A DNA stretch of 64,000 nucleotides, from assembly GCF_012516435.1 (NCBI RefSeq), contig NZ_CP051216.1, positions 1,862,001-1,926,000 of the forward strand, given 5' to 3'. This document shows positions 7,697 through 56,846 of the stretch, in pieces. Below the pieces are notes generated by a model. That model was not told where the DNA came from. It did no database searches and worked only from the letters and a program-made list of their open reading frames with translations. Made by a program: the position numbers and the translations under genes. Position 1 is the first letter of the stretch, and each line of letters begins with the position of its first letter. The DNA is from Pseudodesulfovibrio sp. zrk46. GTDB lineage: Bacteria; Desulfobacterota; Desulfovibrionia; Desulfovibrionales; Desulfovibrionaceae.

Positions 7697-8527
7697 ATGA
7701 GTGACTACGGAAAACTGTGGGTGGTAGCCACCCCGTTGGGCAACATCGGCGATCTGTCCCCTCGCGCACGAGAAGTGCTCATGGACGCAGACGTGATTCT
7801 GGCCGAGGACACGCGCCGGGCCGGGCTTCTGTTCAAGCGTCTTGAGCTGGAACGGCACGGGCGCCTCATGTCTTTCTTTGAGCACAACGAGGACAAACGC
7901 CTGCCCAAGGTGCTTGGATTTTTGGAAGACGGCATGTCGGTGGCATTGATCTCCGATGCCGGAACACCACTGCTGTCCGACCCCGGCTTCACCTTGGTTC
8001 GCGCCTGCCGCGACGAAGGTTTTGATGTTTCACCCGTTCCCGGCCCCAGCGCCCCTGTTGTTGCGTTGTCCGCATCCGGGCTGCCGCCGCTTCCCTATAC
8101 TTTTCTCGGCTTTCCCCCGCGCAAGAAGTCACAGACAGAGAAGATGTTCTCTGCCCATCGTGACACCGGCGCGACCCTCGTTTTCTTTGAGCGCAAGTCT
8201 CGTCTCAAGGGAACGCTCTCCATTGCCTTTGAGCAGCTCGGTGACCGCGAGTTCTGCGTGGCCCGTGAATTAACCAAGGATTACGAAGAATTTCTGCGTG
8301 GAACCTTGTCTGAGCTGGACGATTTCGATTTCGAATTGCGTGGCGAATTGACGGTTATCATTGCGCCAGGCGGCGAGGATGGCGATGCTTCCGAGGAAGC
8401 TGTGGTGCGACTCCTCGAAGAGGAACGCGAGGCAGGCGGCAAGCCCAAGGAAGTGGCGCGCCGTGTAGCCGAACGCGTGTCCGGCTGGACAGCCAAGGAA
8501 GTGTATGCTTTGATGCGGGACCTTTAA
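7697..8527 (+). CDS. rsmI: 16S rRNA (cytidine(1402)-2'-O)-methyltransferase RsmI
   Basis: A 276-residue protein of the tetrapyrrole-methylase fold. It opens with LWVVATPLGNIGDLSPRAREVL and has AEDTRRAGLLFKRL, LISDAGTPLLSDPGF and VPGPSAPVVALSASGLP in the order typical of RsmI. It 2'-O-methylates C1402 in the ribosomal P site together with RsmH. Length matches the family. It starts 3 bp after yraN with a GGTGG site overlapping the upstream end. The gene is followed by a repeat-filled gap of about 300 bp. Confidence 0.93.
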   Translation: MSDYGKLWVVATPLGNIGDLSPRAREVLMDADVILAEDTRRAGLLFKRLELERHGRLMSFFEHNEDKRLPKVLGFLEDGMSVALISDAGTPLLSDPGFTLVRACRDEGFDVSPVPGPSAPVVALSASGLPPLPYTFLGFPPRKKSQTEKMFSAHRDTGATLVFFERKSRLKGTLSIAFEQLGDREFCVARELTKDYEEFLRGTLSELDDFDFELRGELTVIIAPGGEDGDASEEAVVRLLEEEREAGGKPKEVARRVAERVSGWTAKEVYALMRDL

Positions 8528-8565
8528 TTAGAGTAATGGGAGAACCGCCCATGCGGGCGGATGAA

Positions 8566-8800
8566 GAGTGGACGAGCAGGGCTGCCTGCCCTGCACCCGG
8601 CCAAAGGCCGAGGGCCTTTGGAATCCCATCTGCGCCTGTCGGCGCAAAAGTTGATTATATAAATAAAACAACGCCTAGCATGACGTGTTGCTTCGAGCGA
8701 AGCGAGCGACAAAAGGTTTAGGAGATTCTTAAGAACCCTTTTCCCAAAGGGTTCTTAAGCCGTCGGAGACGCCTCTCCGGCGAGGAGGCCCCCGGCAGGG
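8566..8800. repeat. Composite intergenic repeat (mosaic of palindromic modules), copy 1
   Basis: The 306 bp between rsmI and bioB hold no gene but are almost entirely repeat modules. In order: a CAGGG/CCCTG palindrome (8570-8596), a module with GCGCCTGTCGGCGC and a GGATTCCAAAGG-type palindrome read on the minus strand (8599-8646), an A+T-rich linker with GCTTCGAGCGAAGCGAGC (8690-8710), and an AAGAACCC hairpin followed by TTCTTAAGCCGTCGGAGACG (8731-8800). The same modules in the same order, on the opposite strand, occupy 55224-55492. Parts recur at 10436-10520 and 33788-34085. Confidence 0.85.
8731..8756. terminator. Hairpin with AAGAACCCTTT arms, possible terminator within the repeat
   Basis: AAGAACCCTTT and AAAGGGTTCTT form an 11-bp perfect stem with a four-base loop (TCCC). 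Its equivalent in the 55224-55492 copy (55265-55288) has a compensated stem with different bases but the same pairing, suggesting selection on structure. No clean U-tract follows, so factor-independent termination is not assured. Confidence 0.4.
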
Positions 8801-8833: not shown

Positions 8834-9811
8834 ATGAGCCTTAAATCCATACACGGTAAGGTCCTGAACGGGACACCGCTTACCGAATCCGACATCCAGT
8901 ACATCGTAGACCTTCCCGACGATCGCCTCGGCGAACTGTCGGCCTGCGCCCATTCGATCCGCCAAACCCACTTCAAACAGGAACTGGGTCTGTGCGCGAT
9001 CATCAACGCCAAATCCGGCACCTGCTCCGAGAACTGTTCGTTCTGCGCCCAGTCGGGCCACCATGGAGCGGAAAGCCCGGAATACCCGCTGCTGCCCATT
9101 GAAGATATCGTGGAGGCGGGCAGAAAGGCGCAAAACCACGGCGTGACACGCTTCGGCGTGGTGGCCAGCGGCAAACTGGTGGGTAGGGACGACCTCGCGG
9201 GATTCACCGAAGCCGTGCGCGGCTTGGCCAAGCTGGGCATCAAGCCGGACCTGTCACCGGGAATTCTGGACCGTTCGCAACTAAAGGCGTTGAAAAAAGA
9301 AGGCCTGAAAGGGTACCATCACAATCTGGAAACTTCGGCTTCGTTCTTTCCGAAGATGTGTACCACGCACGCCTATGAAGAGGACGTGCGGGCGGTGCGA
9401 GCCGGAATGGACGCCGGATTGTACGTCTGCTCGGGCGGTATCTTCGGCATTGGTGAATCCTGGACAGACCGGGTGGAGCTGGCCATGCTGCTCAAAGAAC
9501 TGGGCGTGCCGTCGGTTCCCATGAATTTTCTGCATCCGATTGCAGGTACACCGCTGGAGAAACAGCCGGTCCTGTCGCCCGAAGAGGCGCTCAAGATCGT
9601 GGCGCTTTACCGGTTCCTGCTGCCGGATCGGACTTTGCGTATTTGCGGCGGCCGTCCCACCGTGTTTGGTGCGGAGCGGCGCAAGGAGTTGCTGACCTCG
9701 GGCATGAACGGCCTGATGGTGGGCGACTACCTGACCACCAGCGGCGGCGACGTGCTGGCTGATCTGGACGAAATCCGCGAGGCCGAACTGGTTCCGGAAA
9801 TTCTTGGATAG
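8834..9811 (+). CDS. bioB: Biotin synthase BioB
   Basis: A 325-residue radical SAM enzyme inserting sulfur into dethiobiotin. The cluster motif is NAKSGTCSENCSFCAQSGHH near residues 57-76 (C-x3-C-x2-C), followed by YHHNLETSASFFPKMC and a C-terminal RICGGRPTVFGAERRK that are family landmarks for substrate and the auxiliary 2Fe-2S cluster. No good Shine-Dalgarno precedes the ATG; the repeat ends about 30 bp before it. It is followed 9 bp later by bioY, so synthesis and uptake of biotin share a transcript. No bioA, D or F is seen nearby. Confidence 0.95.
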   Translation: MSLKSIHGKVLNGTPLTESDIQYIVDLPDDRLGELSACAHSIRQTHFKQELGLCAIINAKSGTCSENCSFCAQSGHHGAESPEYPLLPIEDIVEAGRKAQNHGVTRFGVVASGKLVGRDDLAGFTEAVRGLAKLGIKPDLSPGILDRSQLKALKKEGLKGYHHNLETSASFFPKMCTTHAYEEDVRAVRAGMDAGLYVCSGGIFGIGESWTDRVELAMLLKELGVPSVPMNFLHPIAGTPLEKQPVLSPEEALKIVALYRFLLPDRTLRICGGRPTVFGAERRKELLTSGMNGLMVGDYLTTSGGDVLADLDEIREAELVPEILG

Positions 9812-10372: not shown

Positions 10373-10435
10373 GAGAGGCCTGCCCGAGACGCGCTTCGTT
10401 CATAGAGAACCTAGTGCAATTATTGAAACAACCTT

Positions 10436-10520
10436 GCGCCGACAGGCGCACAATGGGATTCCAAAGGGTATAGCCCTTTGGCCGCCGGGGGCGAAGACAC
10501 CCGACAATCGCCGCGAGCGG
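10436..10520. repeat. Mosaic palindromic repeat, copy 2 (plus orientation)
   Basis: The bioY to EIID gap carries GCGCCGACAGGCGC, then a GGGATTCC element leading into a CCAAAGGGTATAGCCCTTTGG palindrome split here as CCAAAGGG / CCCTTTGG, then a GCCGCCGGGGGCGAA stretch. The same run is found at 55420-55492 on the same strand and, on the minus strand, at 8599-8646 and 33788-33870. The remaining bases of this gap show nothing else recognisable. Confidence 0.8.
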
Positions 10521-10561
10521 CATCCCTGTCTGATTTAATATAAGAAAACTTGGAATACACC

Positions 10562-32748: not shown

Positions 32749-33444
32749 ATGTCCAATCCCGTGTCTCATTGTCTCGCCGGGGCGAAAGCCGCCAGCCCGC
32801 TTCTGGTCGGAGTAATACCGTTCGGTCTCATCTGCGGAGCGATTTGCGTCAGCGTGGGCATGCCCGAGTGGGGCGCGTCTGCCATGTCGGTCATTGTTTT
32901 TGCCGGGGCTTCACAGCTGGTGGCCGTGCAGCTCATGGCAGAGCATGCGTCACTGGCAGTCGTCATATTGACCGCGCTGGTCATCAACGCCCGTCATTTC
33001 ATGTATTCCGCATCCATTGCCCCCCATTTCGAAGGAATCTCACCGCTTCGCAAGGTCTTCTATTCCTATCTGCTGACGGATCAGGCCTATGCAATTTCCT
33101 TTGCCCGCTTCAATGAGGCTGACGGCGGCGTCGTGAACAAGGGGAGTTATTACGTGGGTGCGGCCTTGACTATGTGGGGCGGTTTCAATCTCTCCACCCT
33201 GATAGGTGCGTATACTGGCGCAGTGATCCCGCCTGAATGGGATTTGGATTTCGCCATTCCCCTGACCTTTGCCGCGCTCGTCATCCCGGCCGTCAAAGAC
33301 CGTCCCGCTCTGCTGGCCGCAGTGGTTGCCGGTGTCATTTCGGTGGCAGCCAGCCCGCTTCCCTTTAATCTGGGTCTGATGACCGCTGCAGTGGCAGGCA
33401 TTGCCACAGGCTATATCTCTGAAAGGAGGCTTTCCAATGGTTGA
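32749..33444 (+). CDS. azlC: AzlC family branched-chain amino acid exporter, large subunit
   Basis: A 231-residue membrane protein with about six to seven hydrophobic segments. AzlC features include ASPLLVGVIPFGLICGAICVSVGM near residues 15-38, IVFAGASQLVAVQLM, VINARHFMYSASIAPHF and LTDQAYAISFARF. With AzlD it exports branched-chain or other amino acids. AAGGAG lies before the ATG. The stop overlaps the azlD start by eight bases. The divergent MocR regulator is the likely controller. Confidence 0.92.
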   Translation: MSNPVSHCLAGAKAASPLLVGVIPFGLICGAICVSVGMPEWGASAMSVIVFAGASQLVAVQLMAEHASLAVVILTALVINARHFMYSASIAPHFEGISPLRKVFYSYLLTDQAYAISFARFNEADGGVVNKGSYYVGAALTMWGGFNLSTLIGAYTGAVIPPEWDLDFAIPLTFAALVIPAVKDRPALLAAVVAGVISVAASPLPFNLGLMTAAVAGIATGYISERRLSNG

Positions 33445-33763
33445 TATGATGAAGTACTGGCCAATGGTCTTGGGTATCGGCATCGGCACGTTTATCATCC
33501 GGTATTCGTTCATCCTGATTATCGATCGAGTGACCCTTTCGGATGAGGTGCGCAGAATGCTTCGCTTCATTCCCGCTTCCGTGTTGTCCGCCCTGATGGT
33601 GCCCGCAGTATTGCTGCACAAGAACGGCGTCACAACCTTTGCCGGATGGGAGCGGGTGCTGGCCGCGCTGGTGGCAATAGGCGTGGCATGGAAGACCCGT
33701 AACATCATGGCGACCATCGCCAGCGGTATGGTTGCTTTGTGGGGATTTCAGGCATTGATGTAG
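33437..33763 (+). CDS. azlD: AzlD family branched-chain amino acid exporter, small subunit
   Basis: A 108-residue protein started at ATG 33437 behind a strong AAAGGAGG site inside azlC. It has about four hydrophobic segments, with the AzlD pattern IGTFIIRYSFILI near residue 15 and RMLRFIPASVLSALMVPAVLL in the middle. It partners AzlC in the membrane. Translation is coupled to azlC by the eight-base overlap. Confidence 0.9.
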   Translation: MVDMMKYWPMVLGIGIGTFIIRYSFILIIDRVTLSDEVRRMLRFIPASVLSALMVPAVLLHKNGVTTFAGWERVLAALVAIGVAWKTRNIMATIASGMVALWGFQALM

Positions 33764-33787
33764 AGAGAAGGGGAGGTCGGCCTTCGG

Positions 33788-33870
33788 CCTCCGGTTGTCG
33801 GGTGATTTCGCCTCCCGGCGGGCTTAAGGCCGAGGGCCTTAAGAATCCCATTATGCGCCTTCGGCGCGGG
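33788..33870. repeat. Mosaic palindromic repeat, copy 3 (minus orientation, variant stem)
   Basis: Read on the minus strand it has GCGCCGAAGGCGCATAATGG, then GGATTC with TTAAGGCCCTCGGCCTTAAG, then a GCCGGGAGGCGAAATCACCC stretch ending in GACAACCGG. It follows the same plan as 10436-10520 and 55420-55492, but CCAAAG is replaced by CTTAAG on both sides of the stem, a compensated change. Confidence 0.78.
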
Positions 33871-33882
33871 GTGTTTAAATTG

Positions 33883-33921
33883 AAAAGGTCCCGGAGTAAG
33901 AATACTCCGGGACCTTTATTA
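33883..33921 (+). terminator. Rho-independent terminator after azlD
   Basis: AAAGGTCCCGGAGTA (33884-33898) pairs perfectly with TACTCCGGGACCTTT (33903-33917) around AGAA; a short T-rich run follows. It sits 120 bp past azlD, between two oppositely oriented repeat modules, and its other strand could also serve rimO, which reads toward it. Confidence 0.85.
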
Positions 33922-33932
33922 TGACTACTTTT

Positions 33933-34085
33933 GCGGCGATAGCCGCAGACGGGATTCCAAAGGCCCTCGGCCTTTGCTTCAGCCGTTGGCGAGTCTTCGA
34001 GTCTTACGGATGAAGACAGCAGAGATGGCGGGTGCAGGGCAGCGCCCTGCTCGTTCAATCTTAATCGCGCCGAAGGCGCATCCCA
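33933..34085. repeat. Mosaic palindromic repeat, copy 4 (plus orientation, several modules)
   Basis: This fills the rest of the azlD-rimO gap. GCGGCGATAGCCGC, GGGATTCCAAAGG and a CCCTCGGCC stem (33933-33975) match the core module. 33978-34025 matches, on the opposite strand, 55291-55345 (GACTCG and CTGTCTT elements). A GCAGGGCAGCGCCCTGC palindrome near 34037-34053 matches 8570-8596. A final half module GCGCCGAAGGCGCATCCCAA lies at 34070-34085. No gene is present in the 336 bp. Confidence 0.75.
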
Positions 34086-40872: not shown

Positions 40873-42648
40873 ATGACCCCGGCCCCCCCGCCCACTGACG
40901 ACAAACTCGATCCCACCGAAATGCTGAACGACGGTCCCGACACCGAAGGTTTCGACATGGATAATGTCGACGCCGATTTCGAGCAGGAGCTCGAAGATCT
41001 GTTCTCCGACGACCTTGAAGAAGATGAAGCCGCTCTTGGTGAGCTTGCCGAGGCTGACGATGACGAGCCCATCGTGCTCGATGACTTTGTCACGGCCGAA
41101 GAAGACGTGGTTGAGATTGAGGAAGACGCCGTTGTGCTTGAAGACGTCGCTGAAGAAGCTGACGACGATATGCTGGTGCTCGACGACGTGGCGGAGGATG
41201 ACGGCGAAGAGCTGATGGTCCTGGATGACGTGGTGGAAGAGGCTGACGAAGAAATCATGCTACTGGACGACGTGGTGGAGGAAGTTCCTGCCGACGCTCC
41301 GGAAGCAGACGATATTTCCGCGCTGGTGGATGACATCGCAGAAGAGAATGCGGCGGAACCCGAAAGCGCAGACGATGAAGAGATCATCGAACTCGACGAT
41401 CTGGTGGACGAAGGCGGCGATGACGACCTCGCCGATCTGGATTCCCTGCTCGAAGAGGGCGATGACGAGCCCATGGTTCTGGAAGAGGTGGTCGAAGAGG
41501 CCCCCGCAGAAGAGCCGGCTGACGACGATATTATTTCCCTTGAGGACGAGGCTGAAGAGATCGTTCTCGACGATCTGGCTGACGTCGAAGTCGGCGACGA
41601 GCCGGAGATCGTTCTTGAAGACGACGGTGAAGAGATCCTGCTTGAGGATCTGGCCGAATTGGCTGATGAGCCGGAAGCGCCTGCAGAAGAAGCCGCAGAC
41701 GAGCTGATTCTTGAAGACGTGATGGAAGTAGTCGATGAGGTTGCCCCGGTAGAAGAAGTCGCAGCAGCCCCTGAGATTGGCGAAGACGTTGTCGACGCGG
41801 TTGCTGATGACGAAATCATGCTCGAAGACGTGATGGATGAGGCTGCAGAGGCTCCTGTGGATCTCGAACTGGCCGCGGAAGTCGAGCTTGAAGCAGAGCC
41901 TGAGGCTGCTGTTGAAGTTGAGGCAGAAGTCGCTCCTGCCGCCGCAGATGATATTTCCCTTGAGCCAGAAGATCTCATGGACGTTGCCTTGGCAGAAGAG
42001 CCCGAACCGGAACTGCCGGTTGAGGATGCTGTAGAGGAAGCGGACATTGATCTTCTGATGGATGAACCCGGCGAAGTCGAGGTCGTGGACGACAGCGCTC
42101 CGGTGCTGGATGGTTCCGACGAGAACGACATTGCTGAACTGGCCGGGCTGGATGAGCTTGAGGAAGACGAAGGCATGGAAGACATGGACTCCCTCCTGGA
42201 CAACGTCGAGGTCGATGTGTCCGATATCGAGTCCCCCATGGAAGACGACGAGCATATCGCTGAACTCGATATGCCTGACGTCGAGCTGGCAGACGTTGAA
42301 ATGGCAGACGTTGAAATGCCTGAGGTGGATCTTGACGCCCTGGATGTGCCAGATGCCGAAATGCCGGATGTCGATATGGCCGCTGTGCTCACAGCCGAGG
42401 CCATGCCCGAAGATGCTGGCGTGAATGTTTCTCAGGATGTGGATGTGGATCAGCTCCTCGCCGATGTGCGGGACGAAGTCTCTGAATCCGCCGTGGTTGC
42501 ATTGGAAGCCAAGGTCCGCGTGCTTGAGGCGCGTGTAGAAGAGCTTGAGACTATGCTGCGCGAAGAGATCGCCCAGCTTGTTCCTGCAGAAGCAGCCCGC
42601 ATTATCCGCGAAGAGATCGCCGCGCTGGCGCAGGAACTGGACGACTAG
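40873..42648 (+). CDS. Highly acidic repetitive protein with C-terminal coiled coil
   Basis: A 591-residue protein dominated by Asp, Glu, Ala, Val and Leu, with few Lys or Arg before residue 530. Residues about 50-500 are degenerate repeats of a roughly 12-20 residue unit of the form (I/M/V)VLDDVVEEADEE, recurring dozens of times. Residues about 525-591 form a heptad-like coiled coil (VVALEAKVRVLEARVEELE) ending AQELDD. There is no signal peptide or membrane segment. AGGAGG precedes ATG 40873. It lies between two terminators, so it is a single-gene transcript. I do not recognise the family; a cytosolic or polar scaffold, or a cation-binding protein, are guesses. The minus-strand Ser-rich ORF over it is a shadow. 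Confidence 0.75.
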   Translation: MTPAPPPTDDKLDPTEMLNDGPDTEGFDMDNVDADFEQELEDLFSDDLEEDEAALGELAEADDDEPIVLDDFVTAEEDVVEIEEDAVVLEDVAEEADDDMLVLDDVAEDDGEELMVLDDVVEEADEEIMLLDDVVEEVPADAPEADDISALVDDIAEENAAEPESADDEEIIELDDLVDEGGDDDLADLDSLLEEGDDEPMVLEEVVEEAPAEEPADDDIISLEDEAEEIVLDDLADVEVGDEPEIVLEDDGEEILLEDLAELADEPEAPAEEAADELILEDVMEVVDEVAPVEEVAAAPEIGEDVVDAVADDEIMLEDVMDEAAEAPVDLELAAEVELEAEPEAAVEVEAEVAPAAADDISLEPEDLMDVALAEEPEPELPVEDAVEEADIDLLMDEPGEVEVVDDSAPVLDGSDENDIAELAGLDELEEDEGMEDMDSLLDNVEVDVSDIESPMEDDEHIAELDMPDVELADVEMADVEMPEVDLDALDVPDAEMPDVDMAAVLTAEAMPEDAGVNVSQDVDVDQLLADVRDEVSESAVVALEAKVRVLEARVEELETMLREEIAQLVPAEAARIIREEIAALAQELDD

Positions 42649-54574: not shown

Positions 54575-55201
54575 ATGACTCAACACCGTACCGATGGGTT
54601 TATTCCCGTGGGTGGGGTGGCGAAGCCGCACGGAATTCGCGGGGAGTTCTGCATAAAAAGTTATGCGGACTCCCCGTTGCTTTTCGACGCGGTGCGCGCC
54701 ATCTTTCTCCAGGATGGGAAGAAGACCCCCAAGCCGTTTGTCGTCAAATCCTGGCGTGAACACAAGGGGCTCGTGCTCCTCAAGTGTGCCGGAGTAGACG
54801 ATCGAGACCAGGCCGAAGCCCTGCGTGGCTTTGCCGTGCTCGTTCATCAGGATGATCTTCCTGAACTGGACGAGGGTGAGCACTACATCAAGGATATGCT
54901 CGGCTGCCGTGTGCAGCTCGAAGACGGCTCGCCCGTCGGCACGCTTGAGCAGTTTTACGAAACCCCTGAACAGGACACCTGGGTCATTTACACAGATGAT
55001 CGCAAGGAAATCCTGCTTCCTGCCGTGCCCGAGTTCGTTCTCGACGTGGATTTGGACGAGGAAGTGATCGTCATCGACCCGCCCGCCGGGTTGCTCGATC
55101 TCTATCTGAATCCGGAACCGCCCAAGAAAAAGAAGCCTCGGCGTCGCACGAACAAGAAGAAGGCACGTCCCAACAAGGGCGGGGAAGCGAAGTCGGAGTA
55201 G
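54575..55201 (+). CDS. rimM: Ribosome maturation factor RimM
   Basis: A 208-residue protein. The N-terminal RimM domain has FIPVGGVAKPHGIRGEFCIKSYADSP, and the PRC-barrel part reads HYIKDMLGCRVQLEDGSPVGTLEQFYETPEQDTWVI then EILLPAVPEFVLDVDLDEEVIVIDPPAGLLDLY. It binds S19 and assists 16S processing. A Lys/Arg-rich tail of about 30 residues (PKKKKPRRRTNKKKARPNKGG) exceeds the usual family end. It starts 12 bp after khpA. Confidence 0.94.
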   Translation: MTQHRTDGFIPVGGVAKPHGIRGEFCIKSYADSPLLFDAVRAIFLQDGKKTPKPFVVKSWREHKGLVLLKCAGVDDRDQAEALRGFAVLVHQDDLPELDEGEHYIKDMLGCRVQLEDGSPVGTLEQFYETPEQDTWVIYTDDRKEILLPAVPEFVLDVDLDEEVIVIDPPAGLLDLYLNPEPPKKKKPRRRTNKKKARPNKGGEAKSE

Positions 55202-55223
55202 TTAATGCCTCCGGCGGCGCTTG

Positions 55224-55492
55224 CCAGCGGGGCCTCCTCGCCAGAGGGGCGTCTCCGACGGCTTAAGAACCTTTTGTAAAAGGTTCTTATCTCTGCTGTC
55301 TTTATCCGTAACCCTCGAAGACTCGGGAACGGCTAAAGCAAGAATCTCCAAAACTTTTTGTAGCTCGCTTCGCTCGGGTTCGATGGTTTTGGGGAGTTGT
55401 TTTTTATTGAAATAAGTTTGCGCCGACAGGCGCAGAGAGGGATTCCAAAGGGTATAGCCCTTTGGCCGCCGGAGGCGAAGTCACCTGACAAT
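55224..55492. repeat. Composite intergenic mosaic repeat, copy 5, between rimM and trmD
   Basis: Modules run in order: GGCCTCCTCGCCAGAGGGGC with CGTCTCCGACGGCTTAAGAA (55224-55270), an AAGAACCTTTT hairpin (55265-55288), an element with CTGCTGTCTTTATCCG and GAAGACTCGGG (55291-55330), a CTCGCTTCGCTCGGG element (55362-55380), a T-rich linker and the GCGCCGACAGGCGC / GGGATTCCAAAGGG module (55420-55492). The order mirrors 8566-8800 on the other strand. No ORF of interest lies in the 349-bp gap, which splits an operon that is normally compact. Confidence 0.85.
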
Positions 55493-55550
55493 GGAGCCGA
55501 AGGCGACCTTCTATCCTGATTTCCAACCACAACGAGCAAGCAGCACCAGC

Positions 55551-56846
55551 ATGAATTTTCATCTCGTATCCATATTGCCGCACTACTTCGAGTCTCCGCT
55601 TTCTACGGGGCTGGTGAAGAAGGCTCAGGCCAACGGGCTGGTGAACTTCGACTACGTGGACGTGCGCCACTTTGCCGAGGACATCCACAAGTCCGTTGAC
55701 GACCGCCCCTTTGGCGGCGGCCCGGGCATGCTGCTCAAACTCGACACCATGGTCAAGGCGATGGATTCCATCGAGAAGCCGGGCAAGATCATGATGATGT
55801 CGCCGCGCGGCAAGCCGCTCACCCAGGCCAAGGCTCGGGAGCTGTCCACGCAAGAGGACGTCACCCTGATCTGCGGCCGCTATGAAGGCATCGATGAGCG
55901 CCTGCTGGACCTGTACGACATCGAACTGGTCAGCGTGGGCGACTTCGTGCTCAACGGCGGTGAGACCGCGGCGCTGTGCCTGATTGAATCCGTGGCTCGT
56001 TTGATCCCGGGCTTCATGGGGCATGATGATTCCGGCGAAGAAGAGTCCTTCTCTGCCGGACTGCTGGAATATCCGCACTATACGCGCCCGGAGGACTGGG
56101 ATGGTCTGAAGGTGCCTGAGGTGCTGCGGGGCGGCAATCATGGGGCCATCGCGGAGTGGCGGCGGGAATGCTCGCTGACCAATACGCTGAATGATCGGCC
56201 TGACATCCTGCCCGGTGCCCATCTCACGGTGGAGGATATTGATTTTCTGCGGACCATGACGCGTACGCGACTGGGCCGCAACCTGTACATCGCGCTGTGC
56301 CATTACCCTGTGCTGAACAAGTTCGGGGAAAAGGTGGCGGTGTCGGTGACCAATCTGGACCTGCACGACATGTCGCGCGTGGCCCGGAGTTATGGTCTGG
56401 GAGGCTTCTATGCCACCACTCCCATCGAGGATCAGAAGGCGCTCGCGCAGCAGCTTCTGGATCACTGGAAAGAGGGGGCTGGTTGCAAGGCAAATCCGGA
56501 CCGCGCCGAGGCTTTTTCCAAGGTAAAAGTTTTTGATGATATCGAGGCTGCAGTCCTTGACATCGAGAAGCAAACAGGGCAATCTCCCCGCCTCGCGGCT
56601 ACGTCTGCAAGATTGGACCGCCGCAAGAACGCTGAGCCTGCAATGACCTACGAGGAAGTGCAAGGCTGGCTCGCCAACTCTCCTGTTTTATTGGTTTTTG
56701 GAACAGGACACGGTTTGGCGGAGGAAGTCCTCTCCAAAGCCGAGGGCATATTGCGCCCCGTTAGGTATTTGGACGACTACAACCATCTTTCGGTCAGAAG
56801 TGCGGTGGCAATCATCGTGGATCGTCTGGTCGGAGATGAGTACTAA
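55551..56846 (+). CDS. trmD: tRNA (guanine37-N1)-methyltransferase TrmD fused to a second SPOUT-type domain
   Basis: A 431-residue protein; TrmD alone is about 245 residues. Residues 1-243 are complete Trm[79 protein letters not shown] and [29 protein letters not shown]. Residues about 244-431 ([38 protein letters not shown] through [15 protein letters not shown]) match the Methyltrn_RNA_4 family, a SAM-dependent RNA-methyltransferase-like SPOUT domain of unproven target. I start at ATG 55551; the frame runs open to 55491. No good ribosome site is present upstream. Confidence 0.93.

Follow-up and report, generated by a model that had tools for sequence, protein, structure and literature searches.

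The window, the whole stretch of 64,000 nt that was analysed (positions 1862001–1926000 of the single 4.08 Mb contig of a genome designated here as G000), carries copies of a composite repeat family that is distributed across Desulfovibrionaceae, with no copies detected outside this bacterial family. We estimate at roughly two in three the probability that it is a Desulfovibrionaceae-wide, non-coding, and non-autonomous mosaic palindromic repeat working like REP, BIME, and REPIN elements. The relatives of the bioB product encoded in the window, at 74–78%, belonged to Pseudodesulfovibrio, and G000 is assigned to this genus on that basis.

Module anatomy of the composite repeat

According to an earlier note, made from the sequence alone, five short modules recur at two loci with their order kept but on opposite strands. 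All five were present in this arrangement at 8545–8800 (+) and 55207–55511 (−). The repeat begins ~20 bp before the start position given there. The two copies are alike (they include stretches of 53, 37, and 20 nt with 91%, 92%, and 100% identity, respectively), but the 55.2 kb copy additionally carries a 51-bp insert at 55289–55339, absent at 8.5 kb. Besides these two loci, the family was detected in the window at 10435–10526 and 33772–34084, which had been missed earlier. The features are as follows:

8545–8560, forward strand: outer hairpin CCGCCCATGCGGGCGG (module 0), ~18 nt past the stop codon of the upstream gene 7697–8527
8560–8598, forward strand: modules 1–2, conserved linker GATGAAGA..GGAC and hairpin CAGGG..CCCTG
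8599–8627, forward strand: module 3, covarying hairpin GGCCAAAGGCC..GGCCTTTGGAATCCC
8631–8646, forward strand: module 4, hairpin GCGCC/GGCGC
8647–8689, forward strand: core, AT-rich and non-conserved among the copies compared
8690–8724, forward strand: modules 5/h, hairpin GAGCGAAGCGAG and conserved AAAAGGTTTAGGAG
8728–8759, forward strand: module 6, covarying long hairpin
8760–8800, forward strand: modules 7–8, triloop hairpin CGTC-GGA-GACG and hairpin GCCTC..GAGGC; bioB starts at 8834
10435–10526, reverse strand: single X-type arm (0-X-3-4)
33772–33867, forward strand: X-type arm adjoining the convergent gene 33437–33763 and facing the partner arm 33932–34084
33887–33914, reverse strand: terminator-like hairpin followed by a T-run, forming the core between the two facing arms
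33932–34084, reverse strand: 12-type arm carrying the nested element I at 33976–34026
55207–55511, reverse strand: second composite, inverted, between rimM (54575–55201) and trmD (55551–56846)
55289–55339, reverse strand: nested element I, 51 bp, interrupting module 6 precisely at GATTCTT^AAGAACC

The arms were of the kinds 0-1-2-3-4 or 0-X-3-4, and 5-h-6-7-8, both pointing inward toward a non-conserved core. In convergent gaps, the core can be occupied by a terminator-like hairpin, as at 33887–33914. The composite usually comprises two three-hairpin units, inverted around an unconserved and often AT-rich core. The mosaic REP/BIME-like organisation proposed in the earlier note was recovered both in the inverted doublets and in the mosaic order of modules. 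When the X arm is read backwards, its parts (GC hairpin, GGGATTC, long hairpin, GCCGCCGGAGGC) are arranged as in the C arm. The C-arm-only covariance model matched the X arms at 10436–10495 and 55420–55479 in antisense (E-values of 4e-4 and 9e-4, respectively), which supports a shared unit. We infer that the composite is made of a single kind of unit, present as an inverted doublet. The unit would contain three hairpins, of which the first is GC-rich, the second long, and the third a small GCCGGAGGC/CGTCGGAGACG triloop hairpin, with a conserved linker (AAAAAGTTTnGGAG or GGGATTC) between the first two. The boundaries of the element are fuzzy because the outer modules vary. The window also contains degenerate 42-nt repeats at 41116–41840, in frame within a coding sequence (acidic repeat protein).

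Element I is a 51-bp hairpin with the fixed ends GCTTYAGCC...GCAGMGAT, present in the window at 33976–34026 and 55289–55339 and represented by 28 copies in the sampled genome. Its insertions into the repeat units are precise and frequently fall on the tips of hairpins; the insertion sites were GATTCTT^AAGAACC, CGTCGG^AGACGCC, GCCGG^AGGC, and CCTTT^GGCGGG, with no obvious duplication. In some copies, module 6 was missing beside element I. Element I was also observed within GGTTCTTTCT..AGAAAGAACC, a hairpin of another repeat family flanked by GGGGCGGCTCAGCCA (e.g., at 342133, 743900, and 1808340).

Copy number, stem covariation, and placement relative to genes

The two composites are not a single pair. 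A blastn search of the genome with a 235-bp query yielded 65 matches from 40 scored candidates (41 below E = 1e-17). Module GAGCGAAGCGAGC had 49 exact occurrences in the genome, and the module-3 pattern had 55 occurrences in the family arc, with one additional match that did not resemble them. The reversed control pattern gave 0 matches; for GAGCGAAGCGAGC such a control carries no information, since the module is nearly symmetric. Besides these genome-wide pattern and blastn counts, stretches of ~1.2 Mb in total were sampled.

Compensated changes in the stems, noticed earlier in the pair, were confirmed in the alignments. In the C-arm stems, 98.3% of cells were paired, with double changes at 10 pairs; the corresponding values for the A-arm stems were 98.9% and 5 pairs. 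For both arm types, the covariation score exceeded all 500 shuffles, a test inflated by the relatedness of the copies, and also every slid control, in which relatedness is preserved. The number of doubly changed pairs taken alone was within the shuffle range for the A arm (73 of 500 shuffles reached the same value). The fold of the whole element had a z-score of −5.6. Pairing of the stems is probably maintained by selection, whether this acts on mobility, on the stability of the mRNA 3′ end, or on both. Module 6 was ruled out as an intrinsic terminator, since in the 8.5 kb copy its stem is not immediately followed by a T-tract on the strand of the element. A known RNA family was ruled out by the lack of Rfam matches at the gathering threshold in the window; a tRNA search found none.

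Gene prediction relied on a home-made hexamer model. The expectation that the copies would be intergenic and close to 3′ ends agreed with the sample, in which 78 of 83 clusters lay in predicted intergenic gaps; four of the other five overlapped weak predicted genes only, and the fifth was at the edge of a sampled stretch. Convergent gene pairs were favoured over divergent ones: when gaps of 100 nt or longer were considered in the sampled pieces below 2.2 Mb, 23 of 57 convergent, 45 of 212 co-directional, and 4 of 113 divergent gaps were occupied; the absolute rates are too high because most stretches were picked for holding copies, and the contrast between gap classes alone is informative. In blocks picked irrespective of matches (600–800 kb; gaps of at least 60 nt), the occupied gaps were 5/22, 6/70, and 1/27, respectively. 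Arms facing the 3′ ends of genes were located mostly 16–50 nt past the stop codon, often at ~30 nt. Both orientations relative to genes occurred and the overall strand bias was not significant; a sense-strand bias was therefore rejected as proof of RNA function. All copies of subtype 6b were in co-directional or divergent gaps, with 9 sense vs. 2 antisense copies; convergent gaps accounted for 0 of 12 copies of 6b vs. 9 of 21 copies of 6a (p = 0.012, convergent vs. co-directional).

Related genomes, mobility, and chromosomal distribution

The C-arm model matched 57 of 150 genomes of the order. All listed matches were in Desulfovibrionaceae, in 15 of 36 genera, of which those with a single match near E = 1e-4 are weak and may be due to chance. 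In a set of named loci that spanned many phyla and amounted to 1.23 Mb, Halodesulfovibrio was the only genus matched.

Among the rimM-trmD loci readable with the motif used, the composite was present in two genomes only, G000 and G001. Most of the 24 other readable genus members had overlapping genes or gaps of 25 nt or less, and in two members with longer gaps (142 and 349 nt) the element was absent. Four further junctions were occupied in G001 and empty in G000. The occupancy of rimM-trmD common to both genomes can be of vertical origin. For 51 of 53 copies, the nearest neighbour was in their own genome; identity was 0.84 and 0.81 within the genomes and 0.72 between them. Taken together, the empty sites in relatives and the homogenisation within genomes indicate that the family is mobile, or was so recently. 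Gene conversion could instead account for the homogenisation. As for the features of MITEs, inverted arms are present; neither a target-site duplication nor a related transposase was identified, most boundaries not being resolved to the base. In G012, TrmD is 88% identical (the most similar in the genus), yet this genome had one C-arm match vs. ~50 copies in G000, so the elements are dispensable; G012 thereby offers a natural counterpart with low copy number.

The REP-like reading would involve copying of the units to new sites via a hairpin or single-strand intermediate, with the copying enzyme probably acting in trans. The units would then persist downstream of genes because landing there may be tolerated. 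A functional structured RNA, i.e., an mRNA 3′-end stabiliser, an operon-junction processing site, or a partial terminator, which is selected and spread by recombination and is not selfish, appears a rather improbable alternative. It would agree with the strong covariation, the fold z-score, the 3′-end placement, and the gap and strand preference of subtype 6b. However, the copies occur in both orientations, are nearly missing from G012, are interrupted within their hairpins by nested insertions, and, at 8.5 kb, have no canonical T-tract terminator on their strand.

REP-like repeats are usually attributed to RAYTs. A classical REP/BIME moved by a RAYT (TnpA-REP) transposase would be consistent with the placement at 3′ ends and between convergent genes, with the inverted doublets and many copies, and with the presence of one Y1-domain gene in the genome. 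This sole Y1 transposase gene of G000 (2412064–2412753) is, however, flanked by GGGGACACCTCCC repeats, and no modules of the composite repeat were found within 3 kb of it. No Y1 transposase was found in G001 (56 matches to the repeat), G006 (34), G022 (27), G149 (104), G125 (49), and others. A Y1 transposase was present in 4 of 17 high-copy genomes vs. 8 of 15 genomes with low or zero copy number, so that 13 of these 17 had no Y1 match. Moreover, no GTAG tag was noted in the units. Mobilisation by a RAYT, implied in the earlier note, was rejected on account of the unrelated flanks and the lack of Y1 in most high-copy genomes; a present-day RAYT as the mobiliser is close to refuted, and we regard the RAYT explanation as a whole as very unlikely. 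An autonomous copy with a gene between its arms was rejected as well: reading by eye of the translations of 63 genes between closely spaced copies revealed no transposase, and judging from their sequences these look like ordinary chromosomal genes.

In G000, the sign of the GC skew changes near 1.3 Mb, at the site of dnaA-dnaN, and all 49 of the 49 M5 copies were in the origin-proximal half; in 105 gaps on the terminus side, no repeat family was found. The GC content of this genome decreases from ~57% near the origin to 44–50% toward the terminus. Since the G000 data served both to notice the arc and to test it, the other genomes provide a fairer test of clustering. Clustering of copies around dnaN was seen in G000, G001, G006, and G044. 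It was weak in both G022 and G149, did not reach significance in G004 or G041, and was absent from G125 despite many copies. Origin clustering as an intrinsic property was rejected, as it is not general. REP deserts track non-core regions (Loper et al., 2012; PMC3390384), and deserts of this kind could explain the clustering without a special mechanism. A role as chromosome-organising binding sites, either gyrase/BIME-like or marking the origin domain, is very unlikely: it would fit the origin-proximal copies of G000 and the centre of mass of the copies, near dnaN in most tested genus members, but not the genomes with weak, non-significant, or absent clustering, and the same pattern is shown by REP deserts that follow the core genome (PMC3390384), with the decrease in GC content toward the terminus of G000 also standing against it.

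Comparison with known repeat systems

No paper naming the composite repeat was found in the literature searched. BOX, RUP, ERIC, and Correia-type elements are modular or palindromic non-autonomous intergenic repeats in which any mobilisation occurs in trans; the composite repeat is likened to them by description, not by sequence. An abundant, covarying, and mobile-looking family in a well-bounded bacterial family, most high-copy genomes of which have no Y1 transposase, makes the spread of RAYT-less palindromic repeats approachable by comparative and laboratory tests. It is also of value for annotation, as the repeats sit at many 3′ ends and operon junctions of sulfate reducers. Tentatively, a three-hairpin family with its own 51-bp parasite of hairpin tips, spread without a Y1 transposase, might represent a second route to REP-like elements.

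The Y1 gene of G000 with its GGGGACAC-type flanks fits the TIRYT kind of the TIRYT/TIRtron elements (Di Nocera, 2013) and is separate from, and unrelated to, the composite repeat. CGTC-tagged REPs are small (20–40 bp) and have no dedicated transposase, and REPs are mostly located downstream of coding regions (Di Nocera, 2013; PMC3733652). The small hairpin of the composite repeat (module 7 in G000) likewise contains CGTC..GACG, but the likeness is probably a coincidence, given that this CGTC is part of a triloop hairpin and that other genomes have GCC/GGC in its place. In contrast to classical REPs, the unit is not a GTAG-tagged single hairpin, and no conserved GTAG was present in alignments A1 and A2. 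It also differs from REP, BIME, and REPIN elements in its three hairpins, length of ~80–100 nt, sequence, restriction to Desulfovibrionaceae, and lack of a cognate RAYT. Membership in the RAYT-linked REPs is not supported; a new REP/BIME-like family is well supported as a statement of what the elements work like. In common with E. coli REP/BIME and Pseudomonas REPINs, they are intergenic, biased toward 3′ ends, and present in many copies, consist of palindromic units in inverted pairs and in mosaic order, and have a distribution resembling that of REP deserts (PMC3390384).
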